Assembly (NCBI RefSeq): GCF_010686725.1
Contig: NZ_JAAGWZ010000001.1
Location: forward strand, 1,178,001 to 1,242,000
Reading direction: 5' to 3'
Length of the DNA stretch: 64,000 nucleotides
Source: Galbitalea soli
Lineage (GTDB): Bacteria; Actinomycetota; Actinomycetes; Actinomycetales; Microbacteriaceae
A model generated the notes under the pieces. It saw nothing but the letters and a program-made list of their open reading frames with translations, was not told the DNA's origin and searched no databases. Positions 22,422 through 63,061 of the stretch are shown one piece after another (the stretch's first letter is position 1; every line of letters starts with the position of its first letter). The translations under genes were made by a program, and so were the position numbers.

Positions 22422-22934
22422 TCAGCGCGCGAGCGCGTCGCGGAGGACTCGTTCGTCGGCGGCGCTGTGGGCGACGAGCGTGATGGTGCGGAGCGACGTG
22501 GAGGGGTGGGCGGTCATCCACTGGCGTATCGCGCCGACCGCGACACCGGCCGCCGCCTGCGCCGGATACCCGTAGGCACCGGTCGAGATCGCCGGGAAGG
22601 CGATGGACGTCATTCCCTCGGCGAGGTCGAGGCTGTGGCGGTAGCAGTCGGCGAGCAGTTCGGCCGCTCGATGGGGTTCGTGCTCGCGGTACACGGGGCC
22701 GACGGTGTGGATGATCATCCGTGCGGTCGCGATGCCGAACGCCGCGGTGCTCTTGGCCTCGCCCACTCGCGCACCTCCCAAGCTGCGGCAGGCCGCCAGC
22801 AGCTGTGGTCCCGCGGCCCTGTGAATGGCGCCATCGACCCCGCCCCCACCGAGCAGGCTGGGGTTCGCCGCGTTCACGATCGCGTCGGCGGGAAACCGCG
22901 TGATGTCACCCAGGTGAACGGTGAGATCGGTCAT
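22422..22934 (-). CDS. Macrodomain protein (O-acetyl-ADP-ribose deacetylase-like)
   Basis: 170 residues, a single macrodomain. Diagnostic stretches are [20 protein letters not shown] without its first residue ([19 protein letters not shown]), [18 protein letters not shown], and [18 protein letters not shown]. These give the ADP-ribose pocket with the catalytic Asn/Asp-Gly-Ala layout of the YmdB/MacroD class. ATG 22934 begins the domain exactly. It is divergent from the lipoprotein array with 93 bp between start codons, and has no evident functional link to it. Confidence 0.93.
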
Positions 22935-22981
22935 GACACGCACTCTAAGCCCGGTCGTCGTCTCCTCCCCAGCCCTGCCTG

Positions 22982-23012
22982 TTGATAATTCCGGCCTCGA
23001 GGCGGCGATACT
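22982..23012 (+). promoter_or_regulatory. Candidate promoter of the lipoprotein array
   Basis: TTGATA (22982-22987) and GATACT (23007-23012) are separated by 19 bp, a little long for a housekeeping promoter. It is the only plausible promoter in the gap before the first array gene, whose ATG lies 15 bp after the -10. The transcript would then have a very short leader with no clear ribosome site. No other intergenic space exists in the next 9.5 kb. Confidence 0.35.
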
Positions 23013-23027
23013 GCCTACCGTGCTGGG

Positions 23028-23648
23028 ATGCCGCCGCACCGCAGACCAGTCCCGGCCCTGATCGTTTCTCTCCTCATCGTCGCGATGGTGGCCGGATGCA
23101 CCGACGCACCTCCCCGGCCCCTGCACCTGTCTCCCCCGCCGACGCACAGCAGCCCACCCACGACAACTGCGGCTGAGCCGCCTTTACCCCGCCAGCTCCC
23201 CGTCTCGGTCGCGAGTACTGATGCCGAGGTGCTGACCGCGGCGACGAATGCATACACGGGGTATGTGCTGGCCGCGGAGAGATTGATGCACGGTAGCGAC
23301 ACAGACCTGCAGACTCTGCGCGACTGGACCACAACGAAGTTCGGCGACTCCGAGATCGAGGGAACGCGGGCCTGGCTCGCGAAGGGGAAGCGGCTTGTCG
23401 GCGCCTCCGTCGTGTCCGACTTCCACTTGCTGGATCGGCAGAACAAGGGAGGGGTCGTCATCGCCGTCGTCTTCAGTTGCGTCGACCTCAGCCGCACTCG
23501 CGTCGTCACTAGGACTAGTCAGCAGGCGGCGACACCTAGCGACACATCCAAGTTGACCATGCAGGTCAGCCTCCGCCAATCGCATCCGGGCGTCGCGCAA
23601 CTTGCGGTCGATAGGGTTGTCGCTCTAGCGAAGGTGGACCGGTGCTAG
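23028..23648 (+). CDS. Array lipoprotein A1
   Basis: 206 residues. The signal peptide ends in the lipobox VAGC (Cys 24), so the protein should be lipid-anchored on the outer face of the membrane. The constant block [19 protein letters not shown] and a Pro/Thr linker lead to [20 protein letters not shown], shared by nearly all A proteins. The C-terminal domain (about 65-206) has an alpha/beta pattern that could be an NTF2-like fold (inference). It contains a Cys in FSCVDLS, and Cys is also the very last residue, which suggests a disulfide. Its variable part is nearly identical to that of A3. It is first in the array, has its own signal-peptide version, and overlaps B1 by 7 bp. Confidence 0.85.
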
Positions 23649-24454
23649 GGCTCGCAATCGGTGTCGCTCTGCTTCTTGGCCACCAATCGATCAGCACTGG
23701 CGCGCAACCCGACCGAGGCCAATCCTGCGGCGTTCGTGCGTCCATCGAACGGGAATGCAAGGTGACGGCGCGGAAGCAATCCGCAGCGGTCAGTCTGAGC
23801 CTCACGGTTCTGGAGCGGCGACGAGCCCATCCGTCATCATCGCCGGCGCACGTCGCGGTCGTTGAGGATGCACCCCTCGCGTCGTGGCGAACCACTGAGT
23901 TCAGCGACAAGCCGCGATGCCTTCCCACCAAGGGCAGCACAAGTCGTAAGCCGCTGAAATGCCCCTACCCCACCTTGACCATCAAGGATCTCGCCATATT
24001 CAAACCTCAAGCCGGAATCGCAATGTCCGAACCCGGCTGGTGGGCGGCCCTCAACCTACCCGCGAACTTCTATGCGCTCACCCCGTCCGAGATTCAGAAG
24101 GGAGTGTTGAAGAAGTTCGACGTCGAAGTCCACTTCTACCCGGTCGCCTGGCATTGGGACTACGGCGACGGAACGACCACCACCACCACGGCCCCCGGCG
24201 CGAGCTGGGCGGCCCAGGGTCTCCCCGATCTGACCACCACACCCACCAGCCACCGCTACCGAGAACGCGGCACGGTGATTGCCACGCTCACCGTCGACAT
24301 GGCCGCCGAATACCGATTCGACAACGGCGACTGGATACCCGTCTCAGGCACGATCGCGGTGCACCCACCAGCCATCCACCTTCGGATCTACAGCGTGCAC
24401 ACCGTGCTCGTAAACCCCAACTGCCCACCCGACCCGAGAGGAACCGGATGCTGA
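23642..24454 (+). CDS. Array exported protein B1 with PKD-like C-terminal half
   Basis: 270 residues from GTG 23642, inside the Cys-stop of A1 (GTGCTAG), with AAGGTGG just upstream. A hydrophobic N-terminus ([12 protein letters not shown]) acts as a signal or anchor. The variable region (about 25-85) has two Cys (SCGVRASIEREC). The constant half begins near LAIFKPQAGIAMSEPGWWAA and has the PKD-type strand AWHWDYGDGTTTT, a loop GASWAAQGLPDLTTTPTSHR, TVDMAAEYRFDNGDW and VHTVLVNPNC. The tail CPPDPRGTGC may close a disulfide loop. The N-terminal type matches B3; the middle matches B4. Confidence 0.85.
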   Translation: MLGLAIGVALLLGHQSISTGAQPDRGQSCGVRASIERECKVTARKQSAAVSLSLTVLERRRAHPSSSPAHVAVVEDAPLASWRTTEFSDKPRCLPTKGSTSRKPLKCPYPTLTIKDLAIFKPQAGIAMSEPGWWAALNLPANFYALTPSEIQKGVLKKFDVEVHFYPVAWHWDYGDGTTTTTTAPGASWAAQGLPDLTTTPTSHRYRERGTVIATLTVDMAAEYRFDNGDWIPVSGTIAVHPPAIHLRIYSVHTVLVNPNCPPDPRGTGC

Positions 24455-25056
24455 ACCCTCACCGCAAACACACTCGCGCCATCGTGGGCGGCATCCTCGC
24501 GAGCATCCTCCTCGCCGGCTGCTCCGACGCACCACCCCGGCCCCTGCACCTGACGCCCGCGCCAACCCACACTGCCGAGCAGCAAGTCCCGCCAGCGCCG
24601 CGCGAAATATCGCTCAGGAGCACGGACTCCGAAGTGCTCGCTTCAGCAACGGCGGCATTCTCGGGATACGTTGCGGCGAGCGATCAGCTTTCAGCGAATC
24701 CCCACTTGGGCCTGCGCACATTGGCGCCTTGGGTTACCCACGACATGTACCTCGCAGAGAGCGCCGACTTCGACCGGTCGGTTAAATCCGGAGAGCGACT
24801 CGTCGGCGCGACAAGACTCAGCCAGTTCGTTGTGCAGGGAAAGCCCCGCCAGATGGGAACAGAGCTACTCGTAAACCTCTTTGTTTGCATGGATATCTCT
24901 GACGTGGCCCATGTCGGGGCATCGGGAGAGAAACTCCCGCGGACGGGCCCGCTCGTGACATTTGTGGTGCGCGTCGTACTCGCTCAGAGCCCTGCGACGG
25001 CGCATCGTCTCGCGGTCAAGGAGGTGGACGGATGGGCACGGGCCGATCATTGTTAG
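24448..25056 (+). CDS. Array lipoprotein A2
   Basis: 202 residues. ATG 24448 sits in the B1 stop (ATGCTGA), preceded by the ribosome site GAGAGGA that also encodes the B1 tail. Lipobox LLAGC (Cys 25), then [20 protein letters not shown]. The variable domain is the most divergent of the A set: it keeps the spacing of the others (WVTHDMYLAESADFDRSVKS, GERLVGATRLSQFV) and the Cys pair (FVCMDIS and terminal HC) but little else. Its partner B2 is likewise the most divergent at the N-terminus. Confidence 0.83.
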   Translation: MLNPHRKHTRAIVGGILASILLAGCSDAPPRPLHLTPAPTHTAEQQVPPAPREISLRSTDSEVLASATAAFSGYVAASDQLSANPHLGLRTLAPWVTHDMYLAESADFDRSVKSGERLVGATRLSQFVVQGKPRQMGTELLVNLFVCMDISDVAHVGASGEKLPRTGPLVTFVVRVVLAQSPATAHRLAVKEVDGWARADHC

Positions 25057-25868
25057 TCGCAGTACTCCTAGCAATATCGACTCACTTTATTAGCGCGCCG
25101 TCGCGCGCGGACGCGAGTAGCGCAATCAGCCCCTGCAACAGGACCGAATGGCAGTCTGGATCCTGTTCCGTCAAGGGAACGCTGACGGGCGACCATGTCG
25201 CGCTCGACGCAGCGATGCATTCGAATGCAACGTCTTACGGTCCGCGAGCGCAGCCAGCGCACCCAGCCCCGAGCGCCCCACTCGCCGATGAAATGGTGCC
25301 CTATAAATGGGGGCTCTGTCTGCCCAAGCAATACTCGGGACACGCGATTCCAGTGAAGTGCCCGGCCAAAAAACCGAAGGCCCGCACCGTCACACTGCAC
25401 GACTTGGCGACCTTCAAACCCGAGGCGGGCATCGCGATGTCCGAACCCGGGTGGTCGGCAGCGCTCAACCTGCCCGCCAACTTTTACGCCCTCACCCCCT
25501 CCGAGATCGAGAAGGGCACGCTTCTCAGGAAAACCGCCGAGGTCCACTTCTACCCGGTCGCCTGGCATTGGAACTACGGCGACGGCACCACCACGACGTA
25601 TTCCAGTCCCGGCGCGAGCTGGGCCGCCCAGGGTCTCCCCGATCTGACTACCACCCCCACCAGCCACCGCTATCAACACCGGGGAAGCGTCACCGCCACG
25701 CTCACCGTCGACATGGCCGCCGAATACCGATTCGACAACGGCGAGTGGATCCGTGTCTCAGGAACAATCGCAGTGCATCCCGCGCCGATTCACCTTCGGA
25801 TCTACAGCGTGCACACCGTGCTCGTGAACCCCGACTGCCCACCCGACCCGCGAGGAACCGGATGCTGA
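25050..25868 (+). CDS. Array exported protein B2 with PKD-like C-terminal half
   Basis: About 272 residues. TTG 25050 gives the 7-bp overlap TTGTTAG seen at the other A-B junctions; ATG 25032 in frame upstream is the alternative and would add six residues (MGTGRS). Signal peptide LVAVLLAISTHFISAPSRAD. The variable region has a Cys pair (SPCNRTEWQSGSCSVKG), VALDAAMHSN, and a second pair around LCLPKQYSGHAIPVKCP. The constant half starts at VTLHDLATFKPEAGIAMSEP and includes AWHWNYGDGTTTT. The tail is CPPDPRGTGC. Confidence 0.83.
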   Translation: MLVAVLLAISTHFISAPSRADASSAISPCNRTEWQSGSCSVKGTLTGDHVALDAAMHSNATSYGPRAQPAHPAPSAPLADEMVPYKWGLCLPKQYSGHAIPVKCPAKKPKARTVTLHDLATFKPEAGIAMSEPGWSAALNLPANFYALTPSEIEKGTLLRKTAEVHFYPVAWHWNYGDGTTTTYSSPGASWAAQGLPDLTTTPTSHRYQHRGSVTATLTVDMAAEYRFDNGEWIRVSGTIAVHPAPIHLRIYSVHTVLVNPDCPPDPRGTGC

Positions 25869-26479
25869 GCCGATCCAACGCGACCGCGGCCGCCTTGCTA
25901 CTCACGCTCGCCCTGCTATTGCAGGGATGCACCGACGCACCACCTCGCCCTCTGCATTTGACACCCGCGGCGACGCACACCATTGCATCCGCGACGACCG
26001 CGGCTGAGCCGCCTTTGCCTCGCCAGCTCCCGGTGTCGGTGGCGAGTACCGATGCCGAGGTGCTCGCGGCGGCGACGAATGCGTACACGGGGTATGTGCT
26101 GGCCGCGGAGAGACTGATGCACGGTAGCGACACAGACCTGCAGATTCTGCGCGACTGGACCACAACGAAGTTCGGCGACTCCGAGATCGAGGGAACGCGG
26201 GCGTGGCTCGCGAAGGGGAAGCGGCTTGTCGGCGCCTCCGTCGTGTCCGACTTCCACTTGCTGGATCGGCAAAGCAAGGGAGGTGTCGTCATTGCCGTCG
26301 TCTTCAGTTGCGTCGACCTCAGCCACACTCGCGTCGTCACTAAGACTGTCCAGCCAACGGCGAGACCCAGCGACACAACCAAGTTGACAATGCAGGTCAG
26401 CGTCCGCCAGTCGCAGCCGGGCGTTGCGCGACTTGCGGTCGATGGCGTCGTCGCTCTGGCAAAGGTAGACCGGTGCTAG
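25862..26479 (+). CDS. Array lipoprotein A3
   Basis: 205 residues. Lipobox LLLQGC (Cys 23), a signal-peptide version shared only with A7. After [19 protein letters not shown] the variable domain is almost the same as in A1 ([39 protein letters not shown]), with only scattered substitutions. This shows a recent duplication or gene conversion that covered the variable block but not the signal peptide. It ends VDRC and overlaps B3 as GTGCTAG. Confidence 0.84.
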   Translation: MLSRSNATAAALLLTLALLLQGCTDAPPRPLHLTPAATHTIASATTAAEPPLPRQLPVSVASTDAEVLAAATNAYTGYVLAAERLMHGSDTDLQILRDWTTTKFGDSEIEGTRAWLAKGKRLVGASVVSDFHLLDRQSKGGVVIAVVFSCVDLSHTRVVTKTVQPTARPSDTTKLTMQVSVRQSQPGVARLAVDGVVALAKVDRC

Positions 26480-26873
26480 GCCTCGCAATCGGTGTCGCTC
26501 TGCTTCTCGGCCATCAATCGATCAGTGCTGGCGCGCAACCCGACCGAGGTTCATCCTGCGGCGTTCGTGCGTCCATAGAACGGGAATGCAAGGTAACGGC
26601 GCGAAAGCAATCCGCAGCGGTCAGTCTGAGCCTGACGGTCCTCGAGCGGCGACGAGCGCATCCAACACCCCTGCCAGTCCCGGCGCGAGCTGGGCCGCCC
26701 AGGGTCTCCCCGAAGTGACCACTACGCCCACCAGCCACCGCTATCGACACCGCGGAGCCGTCAGCGGAACGCTCACAGTGCATCCACCATCCGTCCGCCT
26801 CCGGATCTACAGCGTGCACACCGTTCTCGTAAACCGTGACTGCCCACCCGACCCGAGAGGACCCAGATGCTGA
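26473..26873 (+). pseudogene. Decayed array gene B3 with internal deletions
   Basis: The first 65 codons match B1 ([20 protein letters not shown], then the Cys pair). After GAGCGGCGACGAGCGCATCC (about 26643-26662) the sequence jumps to the end of the PKD-like region (PGASWAAQGLPEVTTTPTSH), losing about 0.3 kb and the reading frame. The 5' frame stops at 26718. A second deletion joins HRGAV to SGTLTVHPPSVRLRI, removing TATLTVDMAAEYRFDNGDW and neighbouring residues, apparently at a short CCGTCA homology. The last part, with CPPDPRGPRC and the ATGCTGA overlap to A4, is intact, so the A4 ribosome site is kept although coupling from B3 is broken. Confidence 0.85.
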
Positions 26874-27490
26874 ACCCTCACCGCAAACACATTCGCGCCA
26901 TCGTGTGCGGCATCCTCGCGAGCATCCTCATCGCCGGCTGCTCCGACGCACCTCCCCGGCCCCTGCACCTGTCTCCCCCGCCGACGCACAGCAGCGCGCC
27001 CACGACAACTGCGGCTGAGCCGCCACTTCCCCGTCAGATCCCGGTCTCGGTGGCGAGTACTGATGCCGAGGTGCTGGCCGCGGCGACGAATGCGTACACG
27101 GGGTATGTCATGCTCGTCGATCGCCTCATGCACCGCACGGAGACGAACCTGGCGCTGGTGCTCGACAGAACGACGCCGGCATTTGGGGCGAGCGACGTGC
27201 GAGATGGGAGGGCATGGCTCGCCAAGCCTCAACGACTCATCGGCAACACACTCGTGTCGCACTTCTACCTCATCGACCGGGCCAACAGTCACGGGAGAGT
27301 CACTGCCACGCTCATCGCGTGCGTCGACACTACGCAGTCCAAAGTCGTTGACCGCAAAGGCATCACGATCGTCGGAGAATCCGTACAAGACCGGAAGACC
27401 TTCCTCATCGAACTGCGTGAGAGAACGACAGGAGTGTCGGAACTCCTCATCGACTCGAACACCGCTGATGCCGTGGTGGATCGTTGCTAG
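26867..27490 (+). CDS. Array lipoprotein A4
   Basis: 207 residues. Signal peptide MLNPHRKHIRAIVCGILASI with lipobox LIAGC (Cys 25); an extra Cys lies in the hydrophobic core. The constant linker ends at [20 protein letters not shown]. The variable domain is its own type (RTTPAFGASDVRDGRAWLAK, LIGNTLVSHFYLIDRANSHG), keeping Cys in IACVDTT and the terminal VDRC. Because B3 upstream ends early at 26718, A4 probably relies on its own ribosome site GAGAGGA. Confidence 0.84.
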   Translation: MLNPHRKHIRAIVCGILASILIAGCSDAPPRPLHLSPPPTHSSAPTTTAAEPPLPRQIPVSVASTDAEVLAAATNAYTGYVMLVDRLMHRTETNLALVLDRTTPAFGASDVRDGRAWLAKPQRLIGNTLVSHFYLIDRANSHGRVTATLIACVDTTQSKVVDRKGITIVGESVQDRKTFLIELRERTTGVSELLIDSNTADAVVDRC

Positions 27491-28293
27491 TCGCCGCGCT
27501 CGCGCTCGCAGCGGCACTCGGAGCGCACACAATAGTTCCCGTCGCGGTAGACAGAGGAGCCCCGTGCGAGGCATGGGCCTTCCGAACTACATCATGCGAC
27601 TCAACTGCGCGCGCGACAAAAACTGATGTCCGCATCGAGGTCACCGTTCACAAGTATCGGAAGACCCCGCGTAAAGGGGCACCGGTGCATGTCGCTGTCG
27701 TTGAGGATGCACCCCTCGCGTCGTGGCGAACCACTGAGTTCAGCGACAAGCCGCGATGCCTTCCCACCAAGGGCAGCACAAGTCGTAAGCCGCTGAAGTG
27801 CCCCTACCCCACCTTGACCCTCAAGGATCTCGCCATATTCAAACCTGAAGCCGGAATCGCAATGTCCGAACCCGGCTGGTGGGCGGCCCTCAACTTACCC
27901 GCGAACTTCTACGCCCTCACACCTTCCGAAATCCAGAAGGGAGTGCTGAAGAAATTCGACGTCGAAGTCCACTTCTATCCGGTCGCCTGGCATTGGGATT
28001 ATGGCGACGGCACCACCACGACCTCTTCCAGTCCCGGCGCGAGCTGGGCCACCCAAGGTCTCCCGGAGCTGACCACCACACCCACCAGCCACCGCTACCG
28101 ACACCGGGGAGCCGTCACCGCCACGCTCACCGTCGACATGGCCGCCGAATACCGGTTCGACAACGGCGATTGGATACCCGTCAGCGGAACGATCGCGGTG
28201 CACCCACCACCCATCCACCTTCGGATCTACAGCGTGCACACCGTGCTTGTAAACCCCGACTTCCCACCCGACGCGAGAGGAACCGGATGCTGA
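27484..28293 (+). CDS. Array exported protein B4 with PKD-like C-terminal half
   Basis: 269 residues from TTG 27484 in the overlap TTGCTAG. The signal peptide LVAALALAAALGAHTIVPVA lacks a basic N-terminus, like B1. The variable part has the Cys pair PCEAWAFRTTSC. From VVEDAPLASWRTTEFSDKPR onward it is nearly the same as B1 (including the IQKGVLKKFDVEVHF version of the motif), so a conversion boundary falls near residue 70. The tail reads DFPPDARGTGC: the first tail Cys is replaced by Phe, so the tail disulfide cannot form here. Confidence 0.84.
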   Translation: MLVAALALAAALGAHTIVPVAVDRGAPCEAWAFRTTSCDSTARATKTDVRIEVTVHKYRKTPRKGAPVHVAVVEDAPLASWRTTEFSDKPRCLPTKGSTSRKPLKCPYPTLTLKDLAIFKPEAGIAMSEPGWWAALNLPANFYALTPSEIQKGVLKKFDVEVHFYPVAWHWDYGDGTTTTSSSPGASWATQGLPELTTTPTSHRYRHRGAVTATLTVDMAAEYRFDNGDWIPVSGTIAVHPPPIHLRIYSVHTVLVNPDFPPDARGTGC

Positions 28294-28910
28294 ACACTCA
28301 CCGCAAACACATTCCCGCCATCGTGTGCGGCATCCTCGCGAGCATCCTCATCGCCGGCTGCTCCGACGCACCACCCCGGCCCCTGCACCTGTCGCCCCCG
28401 CCGACGCACAGCATCACACCCACGACGAACCCCGCTGAGCCGCCACTCCCCCGCCAGATCCCGGTGTCGGTGGCGAGCACCGACGCAGACGTTTTCGCGG
28501 CCGCCGCCGCGGCGTACACCGGGTATGTCAAGGTGGATGAAGAGCTGCTGAAAGACAGCAAACTGCCAGCATCAGCCATGCTCGGGTGGACCACTCCGCA
28601 ATTTGGCGCGAGCGAGATTCGCGAGGTGTCGAAGAGTCGAGATGCAGGTCGACGCTTGGTCGGCAACTTGTCCGTGTCGGAGTTTCACCTCCTTTCCCGG
28701 AAGAACGTGGACGGGAGAGTTCGTGCTGTTCTTTTCGCGTGCGCGGATGCCTCGCATTCGAAGTACCTGGAATCGAATGGGCGAAACGCGAGACCAGCAG
28801 ATGCGGCCCTCCGAATCGCGGTCAAAGTGGATCTGAGGCAACTCAACGCGGGCTCGGCGAATCTACTCGTGAACGATGTCATTGGCGTGGCGCGGGTGGG
28901 CAAGTGTTGA
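28287..28910 (+). CDS. Array lipoprotein A5
   Basis: 207 residues. Lipobox LIAGC (Cys 25) and linker [20 protein letters not shown]. The variable domain is of the type shared with A6 and A7: KVDEELLKDSKLPASAMLGW, TTPQFGASEIREVSKSRDAG, FACADASHSKYLESNGRNAR, VKVDLRQLNAGSANLLVND. It ends VARVGKC. It overlaps B5 as GTGTTGA, with GGGTGGG just before the B5 start. Confidence 0.84.
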   Translation: MLNTHRKHIPAIVCGILASILIAGCSDAPPRPLHLSPPPTHSITPTTNPAEPPLPRQIPVSVASTDADVFAAAAAAYTGYVKVDEELLKDSKLPASAMLGWTTPQFGASEIREVSKSRDAGRRLVGNLSVSEFHLLSRKNVDGRVRAVLFACADASHSKYLESNGRNARPADAALRIAVKVDLRQLNAGSANLLVNDVIGVARVGKC

Positions 28911-29725
28911 CGACCTGGCACGCTTTGGCGGTCGCTGTGATGACAATCCTGCCGACCGCGACGCCCGGACACGAAATGAGCTCGCATTGCGGCTCGTCAT
29001 GGGTTTATGGGCAGACGTGCGAGATGTCCGCCGTCACGAGAGACAGTGACGTAGCGCTCGATGCAACCGTTCGGAGCGACGAAGCGAAACGACGGTCAAC
29101 TCGATCCCCTGTGTCCACGTTTGTGAGTGCCACGCCGAAGGCGAAGTCTCCATACGGCGGGAATCGCTGCATGCCCGTCTACCTCCACGGATACACCGGG
29201 CCACTGAAGTGCCCTACCCCGACGAAGACGCCGAAGGCTCGCACCGTCACCCTGCACGACTTGGCGACCTTCAAACCCGAGGCGGGCATCGCGATCAGCG
29301 AACCCGGGTGGTGGGCAGCGCTCAACCTACCCGCCAACTTCTACGCCCTCACCCCCTCCGAGATCGAGAAGGGCACACTCCTCAAGAAAACCGCCGAGGT
29401 TCACTTCTACCCCGTCGCCTGGCATTGGAACTACGGCGACGGCACCACCGCGACCTCTTCCAGTCCTGGCGCGAGCTGGGCCACCCAAGGTCTCCCCGAG
29501 CTGACCACCACACCCACCAGTCACCGCTACCGAGAACGCGGCACGGTGACTGCGACGCTCACCGTCGACATGGCCGCCGAATACCGATTCGACAACGGCG
29601 ACTGGATACCCGTCTCAGGCACCATCGCCGTGCACCCGCCACCCATCCACCTTCGGATCTACCGCGTGCACACCGTGCTCGTGAACCCCGACTGCCCACC
29701 CGACCCGAGCGGAACCGGATGCTGA
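28904..29725 (+). CDS. Array exported protein B5 with PKD-like C-terminal half
   Basis: 273 residues from GTG 28904. Signal peptide LTTWHALAVAVMTILPTATP. The variable region has the Cys pair HCGSSWVYGQTCEMS and the motif RDSDVALDATVRSDEAKRR, related to B6 and B7. A segment GGNRCMPVYLHGYTGPLKC is shared almost exactly with B7. The constant half carries AWHWNYGDGTTATSSSPGAS, and RIYRVHTVLV has Arg where the others have Ser. The tail is CPPDPSGTGC. Confidence 0.84.
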   Translation: MLTTWHALAVAVMTILPTATPGHEMSSHCGSSWVYGQTCEMSAVTRDSDVALDATVRSDEAKRRSTRSPVSTFVSATPKAKSPYGGNRCMPVYLHGYTGPLKCPTPTKTPKARTVTLHDLATFKPEAGIAISEPGWWAALNLPANFYALTPSEIEKGTLLKKTAEVHFYPVAWHWNYGDGTTATSSSPGASWATQGLPELTTTPTSHRYRERGTVTATLTVDMAAEYRFDNGDWIPVSGTIAVHPPPIHLRIYRVHTVLVNPDCPPDPSGTGC

Positions 29726-30342
29726 ACCCTCACCCCAAACACACTCGCGCCATCCTGTGCGGCATCCTCGCGAGCATCCTCCTCGCCGGCTGCTCCGACG
29801 CACCACCCCGGCCCCTACACCTCTCACCCCCGCCGACGCACAGCATCACACGCACGACGAACACCGGTCAGCCGCCACTTCCCCGTCAGATCCGCGTCTC
29901 GGTGGCGAGCACTGATGCGGAGGTGCTCGCGGCAGCGACGAATGCGTACACGGGATTCGTCATGATTGAAGACAGATTGCTGCAGAACAGTCGTGAGCCC
30001 GCCGGCTCCCTGATGGCGTGGGCCACCCCACAATTCGGCGCGAGTGAACAGCGCGAGTTGCAGAAGGCGCGAAACGCAGGCGAACACCTCGTGGGCAGAC
30101 TGTATGTCTCAGGGTTCGACCTACTTTCTCGCAAGAATGTGGCGGGAGCGGTTCGAGCAAAGCTGTTCGCTTGCGCGGATGCGACGCACTCGCAGTATCT
30201 CGACTCAAACGGTCGAAACGCGCGCAACCCGAAGTCCGCGCTGCGGGTCGCCGTCGAAGTGGACCTTCGACAACTTGTCGTGGGCGCCTCACCCCTTCTC
30301 GTGAACGGAGTCGACGGCGTCGCACGGGTGGGCAGATGTTGA
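29719..30342 (+). CDS. Array lipoprotein A6
   Basis: 207 residues. Lipobox LLAGC (Cys 25), linker [20 protein letters not shown]. Variable domain of the A5/A7 type: MIEDRLLQNSREPAGSLMAW, ATPQFGASEQRELQKARNAG, LLSRKNVAGAVRAKLFACAD and LDSNGRNARNPKSALRVAVE, ending VARVGRC. The junction to B6 is ATGTTGA, the only A-B junction of the array with an ATG start. Confidence 0.84.
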   Translation: MLNPHPKHTRAILCGILASILLAGCSDAPPRPLHLSPPPTHSITRTTNTGQPPLPRQIRVSVASTDAEVLAAATNAYTGFVMIEDRLLQNSREPAGSLMAWATPQFGASEQRELQKARNAGEHLVGRLYVSGFDLLSRKNVAGAVRAKLFACADATHSQYLDSNGRNARNPKSALRVAVEVDLRQLVVGASPLLVNGVDGVARVGRC

Positions 30343-31148
30343 TGAGATGGCATGCGGTCGTGCTCGCCGCGTTAACACTGGCCCCGATCGCCCTACACAC
30401 GATCGAGACGAGCCGAACGCGCGCATTCCAGATGACCCGCGGGACCGACTGCCGACCTCACGCCGTGGTCCGAGACCGAGACGTCGCATTGGAGATCTCT
30501 GCTCACCGCAAGGTGGGCAAGCAGAACATCCCACGATCATCTGCCCCCAGCATCGTCTCGCCAACACCGATGGCGATCTCGCCCCACCAAAGCACGCTCT
30601 GCTTGCCCAAGCACATTGACGTGCCAGCCGATTGCGCGAATAACCCGAAGAAGCCGCAGGCCCGCACTGTCACCCTGCACGACTTGGCGACCTTCAAACC
30701 CGAGGCGGGCATCGCGGTCAGCGAACCCGGGTGGTGGGCAGCGCTTAACCTGCCCGCCAACTTTTACGCCCTCACCCCCTCCGAGATCGAGAAGGGCACG
30801 CTCCTCAAGAAGCCGGCCGAGGTCCACTTCTATCCGGTCGCTTGGCATTGGAACTACGGCGACGGAACGACCACGACAACCTCGGAACCCGGCGCGAGCT
30901 GGGCCGCCCAAGGTCTCCCCGATCTGACCACCACACCCACCAGTCACCGCTACCGAGCACGCGGCACGATCACCGCCACGCTCACAGTCGATATGGCCGC
31001 CGAATACCGATTCGACAACGGCGACTGGATACCCGTCTCAGGCACCATCGCCGTGCACCCACCACCCATCCGCCTTCGGATCTACAGCGTGCACACCGTG
31101 CTCGTAAACCCCGACTGCCCACCCGACCCGCGAGGACCCGGATGCTGA
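30336..31148 (+). CDS. Array exported protein B6 with PKD-like C-terminal half
   Basis: 270 residues from ATG 30336 (ATG 30342 is also in frame). Signal peptide LMRWHAVVLAALTLAPIALH. The variable region has RDRDVALEISAHRKVGKQN, nearly the same as B7, and a distinctive second part with LCLPKHIDVPADCANNPKK. The constant half has AWHWNYGDGTTTTTSEPGAS and PIRLRIYSVHTVLVNPDC. The tail is CPPDPRGPGC. Confidence 0.84.
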   Translation: MLMRWHAVVLAALTLAPIALHTIETSRTRAFQMTRGTDCRPHAVVRDRDVALEISAHRKVGKQNIPRSSAPSIVSPTPMAISPHQSTLCLPKHIDVPADCANNPKKPQARTVTLHDLATFKPEAGIAVSEPGWWAALNLPANFYALTPSEIEKGTLLKKPAEVHFYPVAWHWNYGDGTTTTTSEPGASWAAQGLPDLTTTPTSHRYRARGTITATLTVDMAAEYRFDNGDWIPVSGTIAVHPPPIRLRIYSVHTVLVNPDCPPDPRGPGC

Positions 31149-31759
31149 ACCGATCCAACACGACTGCGGCCGCCTTGCTGTTCGCGGTCGCACTGCTTTT
31201 GCAAGGATGCACCGACGCACCACCCCGACCCCTGCACCTGACACCCGCGCCAACGCACAGCAACCCACCCGCGACGAACACGGCCGAGCCGCCTCTGCCC
31301 CGCCAGATCCCCGTCTCGATTGTGAGCACCGATGCTGAAGTGTTTGCGGCTGCTACTGCTGCTTACTCGGGATATATCAGGCTGGACGAGGAACTCCTGA
31401 AAGACCGCAATCTACCCCCGGAAGCAATGCTGCGGTGGACGACTCCCGATTTTGGTGCAAGTGAAATGCGAGAGCTCAGGAGAAGTCGAGCTGCCGGCGG
31501 ACACTTGGTCGGCAAACTGTTCGTGTCGGGGTTCTACCTGCTCTCTCGACAAAACGCGGGCGGGAAGGTTCGAGCCTTACTGTTCGCGTGCGCGGACGCC
31601 TCCCAGTCGCGGTTTCTTGACTCGAATGGACGAAATGCACGCGATCCCAAATCCGCCCTCCGAGTTGCTGTCGAGGTGGACCTTCGACAAATGGCCGCGG
31701 GCACCTCGCCCCTCGTGGTGAACGGCGTGGACGGTGTGGCCCGGGTGGGGAAGTGTTGA
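31142..31759 (+). CDS. Array lipoprotein A7
   Basis: 205 residues. Lipobox LLLQGC (Cys 23), the A3 type of signal peptide. Variable domain of the A5/A6 type (RLDEELLKDRNLPPEAMLRW, TTPDFGASEMRELRRSRAAG, LDSNGRNARDPKSALRVAVE), ending VARVGKC. So an A3-type N-terminus is joined to an A5-type C-terminus, direct evidence of reassortment between constant and variable blocks. Confidence 0.84.
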   Translation: MLNRSNTTAAALLFAVALLLQGCTDAPPRPLHLTPAPTHSNPPATNTAEPPLPRQIPVSIVSTDAEVFAAATAAYSGYIRLDEELLKDRNLPPEAMLRWTTPDFGASEMRELRRSRAAGGHLVGKLFVSGFYLLSRQNAGGKVRALLFACADASQSRFLDSNGRNARDPKSALRVAVEVDLRQMAAGTSPLVVNGVDGVARVGKC

Positions 31760-32559
31760 AAAGGTGGCGCTCAGCCGCGCTGGCGGTGATCACGGTCTTG
31801 CCCATCGCAGCTCATCCAGTAGTTGCGGGCGAAGGCTGTGGAACGAATTGGTCTGACGGGGCAGAGTGCGCACCGAAGGCCGTGGCCCGAGACCGAGACG
31901 TCGCGCTGGAGATCTCTGTTCATCGCAAGGTGGGCAAACAGACCATCCCACGATCCATTGCCCCCAGCATCGTGAGTGCCACGCCGAAGGCGAAGTCTAC
32001 ATACGGTGGAAATCGGTGCATGCCCGTCTACCTCCACGGATACACCGGTCCACTGAAGTGCCCCGCCCCCACGAAGACGCCGCAGGCCCACACGGTCACC
32101 CTGCACGACTTGGCGACCTTCAAACCCGAGGCCGGCATCGCGATGTCCGAACCCGGGTGGTGGGCTGCCCTCAACCTGCCCGCCAACTTTTACGCCCTCA
32201 CCCCCTCCGAAATCGAGAAGGGCACGCTTCTCAAGAAACCCGCCGAGGTCCACTTTTATCCGGTCGCCTGGCATTGGGACTACGGCGACGGCACAATCAC
32301 TACCACCTCCGCCCCCGGCGCGAGCTGGGCCGCCCAAGGTCTCCCCGATCTGACCACCACACCCACCAGCCACCGCTACCAACACCGCGGAACCGTCACC
32401 GCCACGCTGACCGTCGACATGGCCGCCGAATACCGATTCGACAACGGCGACTGGATACCCGTCTCAGGCACCATCGCCGTGCATCCCTCGCCGATTCACC
32501 TCCGGATCTACAGCGTGCACACCGTGCTCGTGAACCCCGATGGCGGGAGCTCCGGCTAG
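31753..32559 (+). CDS. Array exported protein B7, last of the array
   Basis: 268 residues from GTG 31753. Signal peptide LKRWRSAALAVITVLPIAAH. The variable region has GCGTNWSDGAECAPKAVARD and RDVALEISVHRKVGKQT. The constant half is normal up to VHTVLVNPD, then GGSSG and stop replace the usual CPPDPRGTGC tail. That tail also encodes the ribosome site for the next A gene in the other units; here there is no next A gene. The last four bases CTAG are shared as stop codons with the convergent SHOCT gene. Confidence 0.84.
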   Translation: MLKRWRSAALAVITVLPIAAHPVVAGEGCGTNWSDGAECAPKAVARDRDVALEISVHRKVGKQTIPRSIAPSIVSATPKAKSTYGGNRCMPVYLHGYTGPLKCPAPTKTPQAHTVTLHDLATFKPEAGIAMSEPGWWAALNLPANFYALTPSEIEKGTLLKKPAEVHFYPVAWHWDYGDGTITTTSAPGASWAAQGLPDLTTTPTSHRYQHRGTVTATLTVDMAAEYRFDNGDWIPVSGTIAVHPSPIHLRIYSVHTVLVNPDGGSSG

Positions 32560-33519: not shown

Positions 33520-34314
33520 CTAGTCAGACCCGGTGGAGGTGGCCGTCGCGGTCGGGGTCGCCGACGGCGTGACGGCGGTGGTCGACGCGCCCGACGAGGT
33601 CGACTTGCCCGACTTGCCGGGCGACGCGGGCTTGCCCGTGGTCGTCGGCTTCCCCGTGGTGGTCGGCTTCCCCGTGGTGGTCGGCTTCCCCGTCGTCGCG
33701 GGCTTACCGGTCGTCGCCGGCTTGCCCGTCGTGGCGGGCTTGCCCGTCGTCGCCGGCTTGCCCGTGGCTCCGCGCCCGGAGTCCTTGCCCGGCGCACCCG
33801 TGCTCGCGCCGGTGGGTGTGTCCGTGGGTGTGTCAGTGGCCGTGTCAGTGGGCGTGCCCGTCGCGGCGCCCCCGATGCCGGACGCACCCGCACCCGTGCC
33901 GTCGCCCGCGGCACCCGTCGGTGACGAACTCGGCGTCGTGCCGGCCGTGCCGGTGCCGTTCAGGTGAATCGTCGAGTGGGCCGGCGATCCCGGCCCGGTC
34001 GCGACGGCGGGGGCGAACCCCGGAAGCACCGCGGCGATCGCCTGCTGGGCCGCGTGACGAAACTCGGGGCTGGCCGCGGCGGCCGCCGTCGCGCCGAAGC
34101 CGACCGTCGCACCCACGATGAGCACCACGACGCCGAACTGACGACCGCTTCGGCGGCGGCGCTCCGGGCGCAGGAGGAGGCGCGCGACATCGAGCGATGG
34201 CGTCGGCACCTCGCGCGGCGTCATCGACGAGAGATCGGTGAGGAAGTGCCGCAACTCCTCATCGTGTGACAGCTCGGACTCGCGAAGGATCCGGTCCACG
34301 GGCGACATCGTCAT
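33520..34314 (-). CDS. Membrane anti-sigma-like protein with Thr-Gly-Lys-Pro repeat tail
   Basis: 264 residues. A cytoplasmic N-terminus (about 1-57, LSHDEELRHFLTDLSSM and DVARLLLRPERRRRSG) precedes one membrane helix at about 60-83. Outside lies a long region very rich in Thr, Pro, Gly, Ala and Ser. The end holds about eight repeats of ATTGKP/TTTGKP (GKPATTGKPATTGKP and so on), probably a cell-wall-spanning tail. The gene overlaps the upstream ECF sigma gene by ATGA, which is why I read it as its membrane regulator. The N-terminus does not show a clear zinc anti-sigma motif, so this role is inferred from position. Confidence 0.72.
   Translation of the reverse strand: MTMSPVDRILRESELSHDEELRHFLTDLSSMTPREVPTPSLDVARLLLRPERRRRSGRQFGVVVLIVGATVGFGATAAAAASPEFRHAAQQAIAAVLPGFAPAVATGPGSPAHSTIHLNGTGTAGTTPSSSPTGAAGDGTGAGASGIGGAATGTPTDTATDTPTDTPTGASTGAPGKDSGRGATGKPATTGKPATTGKPATTGKPATTGKPTTTGKPTTTGKPTTTGKPASPGKSGKSTSSGASTTAVTPSATPTATATSTGSD
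33625..33771 (-). repeat. 18-bp coding repeat (ATTGKP units)
   Basis: About eight in-frame 18-bp units encoding (A/T)TTGKP inside the anti-sigma-like gene. Copies grade from ATTGKP to TTTGKP along the array, suggesting stepwise duplication. The copy number is likely variable between strains. Confidence 0.85.
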
Positions 34315-34823
34315 AGCTCTCCTCCTCCGCTCGCCGCGACTGAGACGCGCAGCGCGTCGAGCGCGCGACGTTGAAGTTGCTTGATGGCGCCGTGCGACTT
34401 GCCGAGCATCCGTGCCGTCTCGTCGATGCTGAGCTCGCCGAAGATGCGGAGCGAGAGCACGTCGCGGTAGTCGGGCGGCAGGGCCAGCAGCCGCGCGCGC
34501 ACGTCGGAGAGGCGCGTCGACACGATGTCTTCGGGTGAGGGTGCGGTGCGGTCATCCAATTCCGGGTCGAACTCGGAGAGCCGCGGGTTGGTCGAACGTC
34601 GGCGATGGTGGTCGACCGCGCGGGCGTGGGCGATGCTGAAAATGAGCGAGCGGATGCCCGCGGAGCCGCCGTCGGACCCCTCGAGGGAGCGGTAGAGGGC
34701 CAGGAAGACGTCCTGTGTGACGGCCTCGGGGTCGTCCACCCCCTGCGAACGGAGGTAACCGAGCACCGAGCGGGAGTGCTCCTGATAGGCAGACGTGAAG
34801 ATGCTGGCTGTCGCTATCGCCAC
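34311..34823 (-). CDS. ECF-type RNA polymerase sigma factor
   Basis: 170 residues. Region 2 (about 8-75) contains YLRSQGVDDPEAVTQDVFLA and SLIFSIAHARAVDHHRRR. Region 4 (about 105-160) has LLALPPDYRDVLSLRIFGEL and the helix-turn-helix SIDETARMLGKSHGAIKQLQ. The ATGA overlap with the downstream membrane protein is typical of a sigma/anti-sigma pair. The divergent prepilin-like operon begins 222 bp away and is a possible target; nothing in the sequence proves this. Confidence 0.92.
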   Translation of the reverse strand: MAIATASIFTSAYQEHSRSVLGYLRSQGVDDPEAVTQDVFLALYRSLEGSDGGSAGIRSLIFSIAHARAVDHHRRRSTNPRLSEFDPELDDRTAPSPEDIVSTRLSDVRARLLALPPDYRDVLSLRIFGELSIDETARMLGKSHGAIKQLQRRALDALRVSVAASGGGEL

Positions 34824-35045: not shown

Positions 35046-35462
35046 ATGTGGCTGCCTCGTCGACTGCGCACCGCATTGACGCGCGCCCTCGATGACCGCG
35101 GCTTCACGCTCGTCGAGTCCATCGTCGCGATGTTCCTCCTCCTTCTCCTGGCCGTCTCGCTGCTGCCGGTGCTGATCCAGGGCTTGCGACAGTCGTCGTC
35201 CAACGCGGCGCTCGTGAGCGCCACATCGCTCGCCTCGCAGTCGATCGAGGATGCCCGCGCCCAGAAGAGCTGCGCCGCACTCCCGGCCACCAACACCACC
35301 ACCACGGCGGGTACGGGCACCCAGCTCCAGACGGTGCGCACCGTCGGCTCCTGCCCCGCGAGCTACCCGGGAACGATCGCCGTCACCGTGACCGTCACCC
35401 GACTCGACACCAACGTGACCGAGGTGTCCGCGAACACGCTCGTCTACCTGACGGGACCCTGA
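35046..35462 (+). CDS. Prepilin-type protein 1 (PilV-like)
   Basis: 138 residues. A class III prepilin leader is seen: basic MWLPRRLRTALTRALDDRG followed by the cleavage/methylation motif FTLVESIVAMFLLLLLAVSL with Glu at +5. The exposed part is small, with two Cys (SCAAL and SCPAS) and Thr-rich loops. It is the first gene of three and likely a minor pilin or pseudopilin assembled on the outer membrane face. No pilus ATPase or peptidase is in the window. Confidence 0.85.
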   Translation: MWLPRRLRTALTRALDDRGFTLVESIVAMFLLLLLAVSLLPVLIQGLRQSSSNAALVSATSLASQSIEDARAQKSCAALPATNTTTTAGTGTQLQTVRTVGSCPASYPGTIAVTVTVTRLDTNVTEVSANTLVYLTGP

Positions 35463-35464
35463 GC

Positions 35465-36040
35465 ATGAACATCTTCCGACGCCAGCCCGGCGGCGACCGC
35501 GGCTTCACCCTGATCGAGCTGCTCGTCGCGACGGCACTGATGCTGATCATCCTGCCCCTCATCGGCGGCCTCGTCGTGACGCTCACCCGCACCTCGAGCA
35601 CGGTCACCGCGCTGCAGTCCACCACCGGCGCGGCCCAGCTGGTGCTCAAGTCGGTGCAGACGGGCATTCGCAACTCCTCCGACTTCCGGCTGACCAACCC
35701 CACCGGCAACGACCAGCTTCTCGTGGGCCGCACCGCGCAGAACGGGCCCACGATCACCTGGGTGTGCACGGCGTGGTACTACTCGGCAACCGACAACTCC
35801 TTGCGATACACGGTCTCGCCGACCGCGATCTCGGTGGCCCCTACGGCGACCGAGCTGCAGGGGTGGACTCTCCTCGACTCCGTCGTGAGCCCGGCGAGCG
35901 GCACCGGCATCTTCTCCATCACCGGCGGGAAGCTCAACCTCGCCTTCACCAGTTCGCCGGGCGGCAGCCACCCGCCGCAGATGATCAACACCTCGGTCTA
36001 CAACCGAGCCGGAAGCACCGGGAGCCCGCAGTGTTATTGA
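35465..36040 (+). CDS. Prepilin-type protein 2 (PilW-like)
   Basis: 191 residues. It starts 2 bp after gene 1. The leader MNIFRRQPGGDRG precedes the motif FTLIELLVATALMLIILPLI with Glu at +5. The C-terminal domain has single Cys at WVCTAW and in the final QCY. It overlaps the next gene by 10 bp (GTGTTATTGA), so the three are translated together. Confidence 0.85.
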   Translation: MNIFRRQPGGDRGFTLIELLVATALMLIILPLIGGLVVTLTRTSSTVTALQSTTGAAQLVLKSVQTGIRNSSDFRLTNPTGNDQLLVGRTAQNGPTITWVCTAWYYSATDNSLRYTVSPTAISVAPTATELQGWTLLDSVVSPASGTGIFSITGGKLNLAFTSSPGGSHPPQMINTSVYNRAGSTGSPQCY

Positions 36041-37449
36041 GAATCAGGCGTCACCTCGACCGCAGCGATGATCGTGGCGCGGCGCTCGTCGGCGTGATCG
36101 CCGTCATGGCCGTCGGCCTCATCGTCTGCGCCCTCGTGCTCTCGTCGGTGGTCGCGGGCTTCTCGTTCAGCCGCACGACGCGCGCGAGCATCCAGTCGCA
36201 GGCCGCCGCCGATGCCGGCGTGGCCGCCGCTCGCGTGGGCCTCTTCACCTTCGGCAACTGTGTGCTGCAGCCGACCCCCGGTGTGTACGCCTCGAGCGGG
36301 ACGCCCAATTATTCGGCGGTCATCCAGGTGCTCTCCGGCGGGGCCTGGGTGAACGGATGCCCGGCGGTGGCCAACATGACGCCTCAGGTGCGCATCCTCT
36401 CCACCGGCACCGCACCCGGCCCGAGCGGCAACGGGACGACCGCGAAGGTCGAGGCGATCTACAACTACCTCTGGCCGGGCGTCACGCCCAGCGGTGTCGC
36501 GGTCTACCTCTATGCGGGCGGTATCGTGCAGGCCAACTCCTCGATGGACATGTCGGAGAGCCCCGGCGCCGGACTCGTCGTGAAGAAGGGCAACCTGGTC
36601 TGCGGCAAGAACAACACCGTGATCAACGGCGACATCGTCGTCGACGGCAACCTCGACCTCGGCAGCAACAGCTGTGCCATCAACGGCAACGCGTGGGTCT
36701 CCGGTGCGGTGACCCTCGGGTCGAAGGGCAACGTGAGCGAGAACCTCTCCTCGTCGAGCGTCACGCCGAACCCTCCGGGCAAGCAGGTCGGTGGCACCTA
36801 CACGCAGAGCGGCGTGCTGCCGAGCACGCCGAACTGGGTCGACATTCCCTACACGCCCTCCGACTGGGTGGACTCGCTGGGGACGCCGTACGAGGTCAAG
36901 ACGCTCAGCGGGTCGAGCTGCACGCAGTACGGCGGGTCGACCGGAGGCACGATCCCCGGCAACCCCATCATCATCAACGCTCTCGCGTGCACCAACGGAA
37001 TCCAGGTCACCAACAACACCACCTTCAAGCTCACCAGCGACGTCGTGTTCTTCGCCCCCATGTTCAGCTGGGGCTCCATCAACCAGCTCAACTTCGCCTC
37101 CGCCGACGGCGCCGGTCACCACGTCTGGTTCGTCACCCCCGACAACACGGCCGACGGCAAGCCGACCTGCGCATCCGGCGAGGGCGACTTCGCGGTCAAC
37201 AACAGCTTCCAGATCCAGGCGCCCATCGACGCCATGCTCTACACGCCGTGCTCCTTCAGCGGCAAGAACGGGTACACCTGGCGCGGCCAGCTGTACGCCG
37301 GCGGCTACAGCGACCTGGAGAACAACCCCACCTACAGCTTCACCTCGGTGGGCATCGCGGGATACGACCTGACGGCCGGGCAGAAGAGCACCACGATTCT
37401 GACGCCCCAGATCGGCACGGTGATCTCCAACCGCAACGTCGCCGGGTAG
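36031..37449 (+). CDS. PilX-like exported protein with N-terminal pilin-type helix
   Basis: 472 residues from GTG 36031. A basic start (LLRIRRHLDRSDDRG) leads to the helix AALVGVIAVMAVGLIVCALV, which lacks the +5 Glu, as PilX proteins often do. The long exposed region has DIVVDGNLDLGSNSC and NGNAWVSGAVTLGSKGNVSE, short beta-solenoid-like repeats, several Cys, and Asn/Thr-rich stretches. It could be a tip adhesin carried by the two smaller pilins (inference). Its end leaves a 111-bp GC-rich gap before the convergent helicase. Confidence 0.8.
   Translation: MLLRIRRHLDRSDDRGAALVGVIAVMAVGLIVCALVLSSVVAGFSFSRTTRASIQSQAAADAGVAAARVGLFTFGNCVLQPTPGVYASSGTPNYSAVIQVLSGGAWVNGCPAVANMTPQVRILSTGTAPGPSGNGTTAKVEAIYNYLWPGVTPSGVAVYLYAGGIVQANSSMDMSESPGAGLVVKKGNLVCGKNNTVINGDIVVDGNLDLGSNSCAINGNAWVSGAVTLGSKGNVSENLSSSSVTPNPPGKQVGGTYTQSGVLPSTPNWVDIPYTPSDWVDSLGTPYEVKTLSGSSCTQYGGSTGGTIPGNPIIINALACTNGIQVTNNTTFKLTSDVVFFAPMFSWGSINQLNFASADGAGHHVWFVTPDNTADGKPTCASGEGDFAVNNSFQIQAPIDAMLYTPCSFSGKNGYTWRGQLYAGGYSDLENNPTYSFTSVGIAGYDLTAGQKSTTILTPQIGTVISNRNVAG

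Positions 37450-61064: not shown

Positions 61065-63061
<1,997 letters not shown>

Follow-up and report, generated by a model that had tools for sequence, protein, structure and literature searches.

A gap-free tandem array of alternating lipoprotein and PKD-like protein genes in Galbitalea soli

Layout, junctions and promoter of the array

We analyzed a window of 64,000 nucleotides (nt) from Galbitalea soli (assembly GCF_010686725.1, contig NZ_JAAGWZ010000001.1, positions 1,178,001-1,242,000, forward strand) and focused on an array at positions 23028-32559. On the plus strand of this segment, seven genes for predicted lipoproteins (family A) alternate strictly with seven genes for PKD-like proteins (family B), with no intergenic DNA between them (Table 1). 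A preliminary description, made from the DNA letters, had reported fourteen genes that alternate A-B seven times with zero intergenic DNA. Re-reading of the frames bore out the order and the absence of intergenic DNA throughout the array, but not the presence of fourteen intact genes, because B3 is a pseudogene. Thus, thirteen genes are intact, comprising six whole A-B pairs and one A gene with a remnant B. The A proteins are 202-207 amino acids (aa) long and the intact B proteins 268-278 aa, and the G+C content of the array is 63.7% compared to 67.3% for the whole window. Relative to B1, B3 has suffered deletions of ≈350 and ≈65 base pairs (bp) plus a frameshift, and its frame stops after 81 aa. 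B7 ends in NPDGGSSG in place of the conserved NPDCPPDPRGTGC, and its 3' end overlaps a convergent SHOCT gene by 4 nt.

The six B-to-A junctions all read ATGCTGA, exactly as the preliminary description had it. Its companion claim, that every A-to-B junction is a 7-bp overlap, holds for the form of the overlap but probably not for A2-B2. There, the B2 ATG at 25032 stands behind AAGGAGGTG, and the resulting 25-nt overlap is the commonest ATG overlap among relatives; most likely, therefore, A2 and B2 overlap by 25 nt instead of 7, and the TTG start that gives 7 bp is a mere alternative. The uniformity of the 7-bp overlaps is explained by a conserved terminal Cys codon (TGC/TGT) followed by a stop codon, since an NTG start at this position yields NTG(C/T)TRR. 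Among relatives, this ending is present in 68 of 70 genes of family B and in 42 of 70 of family A. This explanation led us to reject the notion that the overlaps are a special recombination site. Shine-Dalgarno-like motifs occur in the tails of the upstream genes: most A starts are preceded by a GAGAGGA-type motif, B2 by AAGGAGG, and the other B starts by weaker GGTGG-type motifs. Short overlaps go with coupling by termination and reinitiation and are enriched among gene pairs encoding subunits of heteromeric complexes (PMC10666635). Because the downstream starts in the array lie within or beside the preceding stop codons, and several have a Shine-Dalgarno-like motif in the gene before them, translation along the array is probably coupled.

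A TAnnnT element lies a few nt (mostly 6-7) 5' of the in-frame A start in 65 of 71 relatives, and A1 carries the same leaderless arrangement, with TACCGT placed 6 nt before its ATG. A motif scan detected no second TAnnnT-start combination ahead of any A or B gene within the array; the single further match, at 32002, stands before an out-of-frame start. Nothing was found in a scan for the sigma-70 -35/-10 consensus. In Mycobacterium tuberculosis, many leaderless mRNAs are transcribed from TANNNT -10 elements (PMC3898074). The predicted promoter is thus of the TAnnnT leaderless type, one for all 14 genes of the array, and the whole operon would be transcribed from it starting at the A1 ATG.

Table 1. 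Features of the lipoprotein/PKD-like array (window coordinates; pLDDT, predicted local distance difference test)
Feature	Coordinates	Strand	Remarks
Predicted leaderless promoter	23016..23030	+	-10 TACCGT (23016-23021), 6-nt spacer GCTGGG, then A1 ATG
A1 lipoprotein	23028..23648	+	Lipobox VAGC
B1 PKD-like	23642..24454	+	GTG start, 7-nt overlap
A2 lipoprotein	24448..25056	+	Most divergent A copy
B2	25032..25868	+	Best start ATG 25032 behind AAGGAGG, 25-nt overlap; alternative TTG 25050
A3 lipoprotein	25862..26479	+	Chimera of A7-like signal/linker and A1-like body
B3 pseudogene	26473..26873	+	Two internal deletions, frameshift, most of PKD core gone; 3' ATGCTGA junction retained
A4 lipoprotein	26867..27490	+	
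B4	27484..28293	+	TTG start; mid segment almost identical to B1 (101-bp exact match)
A5 lipoprotein	28287..28910	+	AlphaFold2 model NTF2-like, pLDDT 87
B5 PKD-like	28904..29725	+	AlphaFold2 model pLDDT 80; PKD half >90
A6 lipoprotein	29719..30342	+	
B6 PKD-like	30336..31148	+	
A7 lipoprotein	31142..31759	+	
B7 PKD-like	31753..32559	+	GGSSG in place of the conserved Cys segment at the C-terminus

The A and B families and their occurrence in Micrococcales

All seven array A proteins have a lipobox GC at residues 23-25, and of 87 A genes checked, 79 encode a lipobox. From its signal sequence and lipobox Cys, A is predicted to be a bacterial lipoprotein, and the earlier proposal that every A is a lipoprotein agrees with predicted lipidation in 7 of 7 copies. 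The linker DAPPRPLHL is common to all array A proteins, whereas their C-terminal two thirds are strongly divergent, such that whole-protein identity to A1 ranges from 37 to 81%. Two Cys residues, one mid-domain and one C-terminal, are invariant in A and could form a disulfide. The AlphaFold2 model of A5 begins with three helices, after which come four long strands; its best Foldseek matches were to ARC6, Tim44, ketosteroid-isomerase-like proteins, and PBP N-terminal NTF2-type domains (E values of 5e-4 to 0.01). The predicted fold of A is therefore NTF2-like, with helices that pack against a curved antiparallel sheet.

A falls in no Pfam or NCBIfam family, and its weak matches resemble signal-peptide noise; membership of A in a named lipoprotein family of either database was rejected. 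Likewise, no match to DUF6318 (PF19843) above cut-off was found in the window A proteins, 69 A relatives, or the whole G. soli genome (G000). Nevertheless, an hhalign comparison of A with DUF6318 gave a probability of 55% and a pairwise E value of 1e-4 over 114 columns, collinear over the mature domain. The A profile also retrieved DUF6318-labelled partner genes with E values down to 1e-7, aided by the signal peptide, and reversed and shuffled controls were empty. This weak collinear profile similarity, together with genomic position, suggests that A is probably a distant relative of DUF6318.

The B proteins combine an almost invariant C-terminal PKD-like half with a variable N-terminal half. 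Pfam PKD scores (PF00801/PF18911) of the window B proteins were 16-23 bits, below the gathering cut-offs of 23.5/27, and 55 of 73 B relatives matched PKD at E<=1e-3. A WxWxYGDG motif and a terminal DC..P.GPGC are conserved, and the B5 model has a PKD-like beta fold, whose best PDB match, a weak one, is a PKD domain. B is thus a PKD-like protein. The preliminary description had every B exported and carrying a PKD-like half; this agrees with the intact copies, which have the PKD half and N-termini that appear Sec-like by eye, but not with B3, whose core is mostly lost.

We then surveyed 300 Microbacteriaceae genomes and 198 genomes of the order Micrococcales. B homologues are present in 205 of the 300 family genomes and A homologues in 148, mostly as a single copy, although copy number was taken from the best-scoring candidates per genome and large arrays elsewhere could be undercounted. 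Five genus mates of G. soli have one B match apiece. In nearly all Microbacteriaceae loci examined, A lies directly 5' of B, usually overlapping it. A trypsin-like/PDZ (HtrA-type) protease gene is present in 42 of 74 named Microbacteriaceae loci, normally directly 3' of B on the same strand, and is followed by a family-2 glycosyltransferase (GT2) gene. This single-copy locus shares with the array its families, gene order, leaderless promoter type, and overlapping frames; however, it holds one copy with its own 3' protease, whereas the array holds seven units behind one promoter at another site and has no protease.

Of the 198 order genomes, 144 contain a B homologue. Outside Microbacteriaceae, the gene directly 5' of B usually encodes a DUF6318 lipoprotein (86 of 118 cases among the matches listed), as it does on an Arthrobacter plasmid. 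Like the array, this bicistron places a lipoprotein gene directly 5' of a B homologue with frames that often touch or overlap; unlike the array, it is mostly present as one pair per genome, and the array A proteins fall below the PF19843 threshold. We propose that A is the Microbacteriaceae counterpart of DUF6318 in this bicistron. Thus, the A-B pair is a widespread, uncharacterised bicistronic unit, and these data reveal an envelope module of an A- or DUF6318-type lipoprotein and a PKD protein in most Micrococcales genomes sampled. As side observations in other Micrococcales families, one genome (G382) has six B matches and a mixed DUF6318/B cluster (L207), and another (G353) has ten DUF6318 matches, most of them within two clusters (L205/L206).

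In the literature searched, we found no paper that uses the name DUF6318 and none on lipoprotein/PKD pairs of Microbacteriaceae. The statement that the layout matches no named system is in keeping with this result, but the gene pair itself is common; the array is unusual in how many copies it holds, in how tightly they are packed, and in being a mosaic. The suggestion that A and B form one unit is well supported by the position of A directly 5' of B and by the DUF6318 lipoprotein that replaces A in much of the order; its surface location depends on clear lipoboxes and on B N-termini that look Sec-like by eye.

Two further loci hold multiple copies. A second G. soli locus (L058, 9666-14100; C1:905668-910 kb) contains six tandem A genes and one B gene, followed by HtrA-like protease and GT2-like genes. 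Because protease-like and glycosyltransferase-like genes come after its B, we take this locus to be the ancestral site, itself expanded. Its A junctions are mostly 7 nt, and 80 nt from the start of a B gene persist as a remnant between its fifth and sixth (last) A genes. The array A proteins are monophyletic in a tree (support 99), as are the six A proteins of the second locus, and a 10-residue linker is common to the array A proteins and several of those at the second locus. The array itself sits at the end of synteny with genus mates, just past adenosylhomocysteinase. The search of related Microbacteriaceae that had been suggested for the same alternation was positive: relatives usually have one copy, but a genome of another genus (G029) contains four complete A-B units and a truncated one (L061, 7276-14267). 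Each of these four complete units bears the identical leaderless promoter TACCTTCGTCGCCATG, and the units are separated by gaps of ≈240 bp where measured. By contrast, the G. soli array has zero gaps and one promoter. The G029 array is independent of the G. soli array, and the A-B alternation is thus not unique.

Expansion of A genes at two loci of the G. soli genome raised the alternative that these lipoproteins confer immunity to, or exclusion of, envelope-acting toxins or phages and are arrayed as a set of specificities, for which diverged lipoprotein arrays with recombining cassettes would be fitting. However, there was no PADLOC match, PHROG gave only spanin-like signal-peptide noise (E>0.03), B was unmatched in phage records, and a plasmid search returned four weak B matches and none for A. 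Moreover, a pair that occurs order-wide in single copy, and that adjoins an HtrA-like protease in many Microbacteriaceae loci, looks like a housekeeping function. We consider this alternative improbable. An origin from phage or defence systems and spread on plasmids were both rejected on the same database results.

Mosaic structure and selection

When the seven units were aligned from A start to A start, the arm, which runs from the PKD half of B through the signal and linker of the next A, was mostly 80-95% identical and contained three alternative signal-peptide types. By contrast, the cassette, which runs from the mature domain of A through the N-terminal region of B, was often 35-50% identical. 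The mean proportion of synonymous differences (pS) was 0.66 and 0.62 in the cassette compared to 0.34 in the B C-terminal part. Since the contrast between arm and cassette extends to synonymous sites, purifying selection on the proteins is not by itself sufficient to produce it. The pairwise homoplasy index (PHI) test rejected absence of recombination (p=0.001), and units 3 and 4 are visible chimeras; unit 3 has an A7-like signal joined to a unit 1-like body, and an identical tract of 101 bp is common to B1 and B4. Distances between A C-terminal regions and between B N-terminal regions were correlated (Mantel r=0.72, exact permutation p=0.007), whereas those between A signal/linker and A C-terminal regions were not (r=-0.01).

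These features bear on two rival explanations. That the array is an assembly artefact has a negligible probability, given that its longest exact repeat is 101 bp, with no repeat of at least 120 bp, that most units are 35-95% identical, and that it lies inside a 1.28-Mb contig. Mosaic cassettes, conserved flanks, and gene-conversion tracts are also what an antigenic or phase-variation reservoir would show, in which silent copies supply an expression copy. Yet all A copies are complete (start, lipobox, and stop) and lie in one direction behind one promoter, no distinct expression site is present, and the high pS values imply that the cassettes are old and not freshly shuffled, which makes such a reservoir very improbable.

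In close cassettes, nonsynonymous divergence (dN) relative to synonymous divergence (dS) was 0.05/0.22 for A1/A3 and about 0.24/1.3 for A5/6/7. These dN values, well below dS, imply that the cassettes have been kept functional. Positive selection on the cassettes was not seen, because dN was well below dS in close pairs and sites were saturated elsewhere. The same values count against neutral tandem duplication or a mere gain in dosage, which would ascribe divergence to drift and gene conversion and leave the array to decay. The B3 pseudogene, the truncated B7, the B remnant at the ancestral locus, and the lack of synteny of the array segment with genus mates speak for such a process. On the other hand, seven A and six B frames are open despite cassettes near synonymous saturation, dN/dS between close cassettes points to purifying selection, and a gain in dosage alone would not be expected to yield diverged cassettes. 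We therefore regard neutral or dosage-driven duplication as rather unlikely.

Interpretation and comparison with known arrays

We consider it fairly probable that the array arose when a bicistronic envelope module, conserved through much of Micrococcales, was amplified in tandem and diversified within one lineage, and that cassettes are shuffled via the arms and each A anchors its own B. Homologous arms would flank each variable cassette, and recombination within them, by adding, deleting, and shuffling cassettes in frame, would account for both the growth and the mosaicism of the array. Each A would be lipidated and held at the outer face of the membrane, where it would bind the exported B that is translated with it, and the A-B pair is probably such a co-translated complex. 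The NTF2 domain of A and the N-terminal region of B may carry the variable specificity, so that diverged pairs would recognise different wall or external ligands.

Several observations weigh against parts of this interpretation. The ratio of six A genes to one B gene at the second G. soli locus, plus the dead B3, indicates that strict one-to-one pairing is not required. The correlation between A C-terminal and B N-terminal distances could stem from physical linkage of adjacent regions as well as from co-adaptation. Both AlphaFold2 models (A5 and B5) are of single chains. In addition, several B proteins have no clear basic n-region as judged by eye, and the hhalign similarity of A to DUF6318 weakened when the signal peptide was removed (29%, 6e-4).

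More tentatively, amplification of the module may have produced an encoded repertoire of matched surface pairs, in which in-frame gain, loss, and swapping of cassettes, by way of arms that span each B-to-A border, would leave all products intact and provide several co-expressed lipoprotein/PKD receptors of differing specificity from one leaderless mRNA; this extension is possible, but we hold it with low confidence.

A comparable architecture is the nuSa-alpha lpl cluster of Staphylococcus aureus, which in USA300 consists of 10 same-orientation tandem lipoprotein paralogues, whose variable 5' and 3' regions surround a conserved intragenic region thought to promote shuffling (PMC4470592). Compared by published architecture only, the cluster resembles the array in its tandem unidirectional lipoprotein paralogues and its recombining conserved and variable regions, but it is made of one gene family, whereas two families alternate in the array. 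The evolutionary unit across two adjacent genes described by Tsuru and Kobayashi (2008), as cited in PMC4470592, resembles the cassettes of the array. Thus, as far as the literature searched shows, the alternation of two families in a leaderless operon with no gaps is a previously undescribed variant of tandem lipoprotein arrays. The array, the locus with six A genes and one B, and the array in another genus form a natural series in which to study which part varies, the ligand, and recombination of paralogues across gene borders with frames kept. Moreover, a 14-gene operon that is probably leaderless and translationally coupled offers a test case for coupling along a long chain.

Other genes of the window were noted around the array. 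A macro-domain protein gene (22425-22985) is divergent from the array, with a likely start ≈43 bp from A1. A few kb 3' of the array are prepilin-like genes (35046-37449; N-termini FTLVESIVAMFLLL and FTLIELLVATALM), adjoined by a pair of sigma-factor-like genes (33520-34823). Where the non-syntenic region ends on the right, two adjacent genes (61065-63061) were read by eye as resembling an IS21-type transposase and a small partner.

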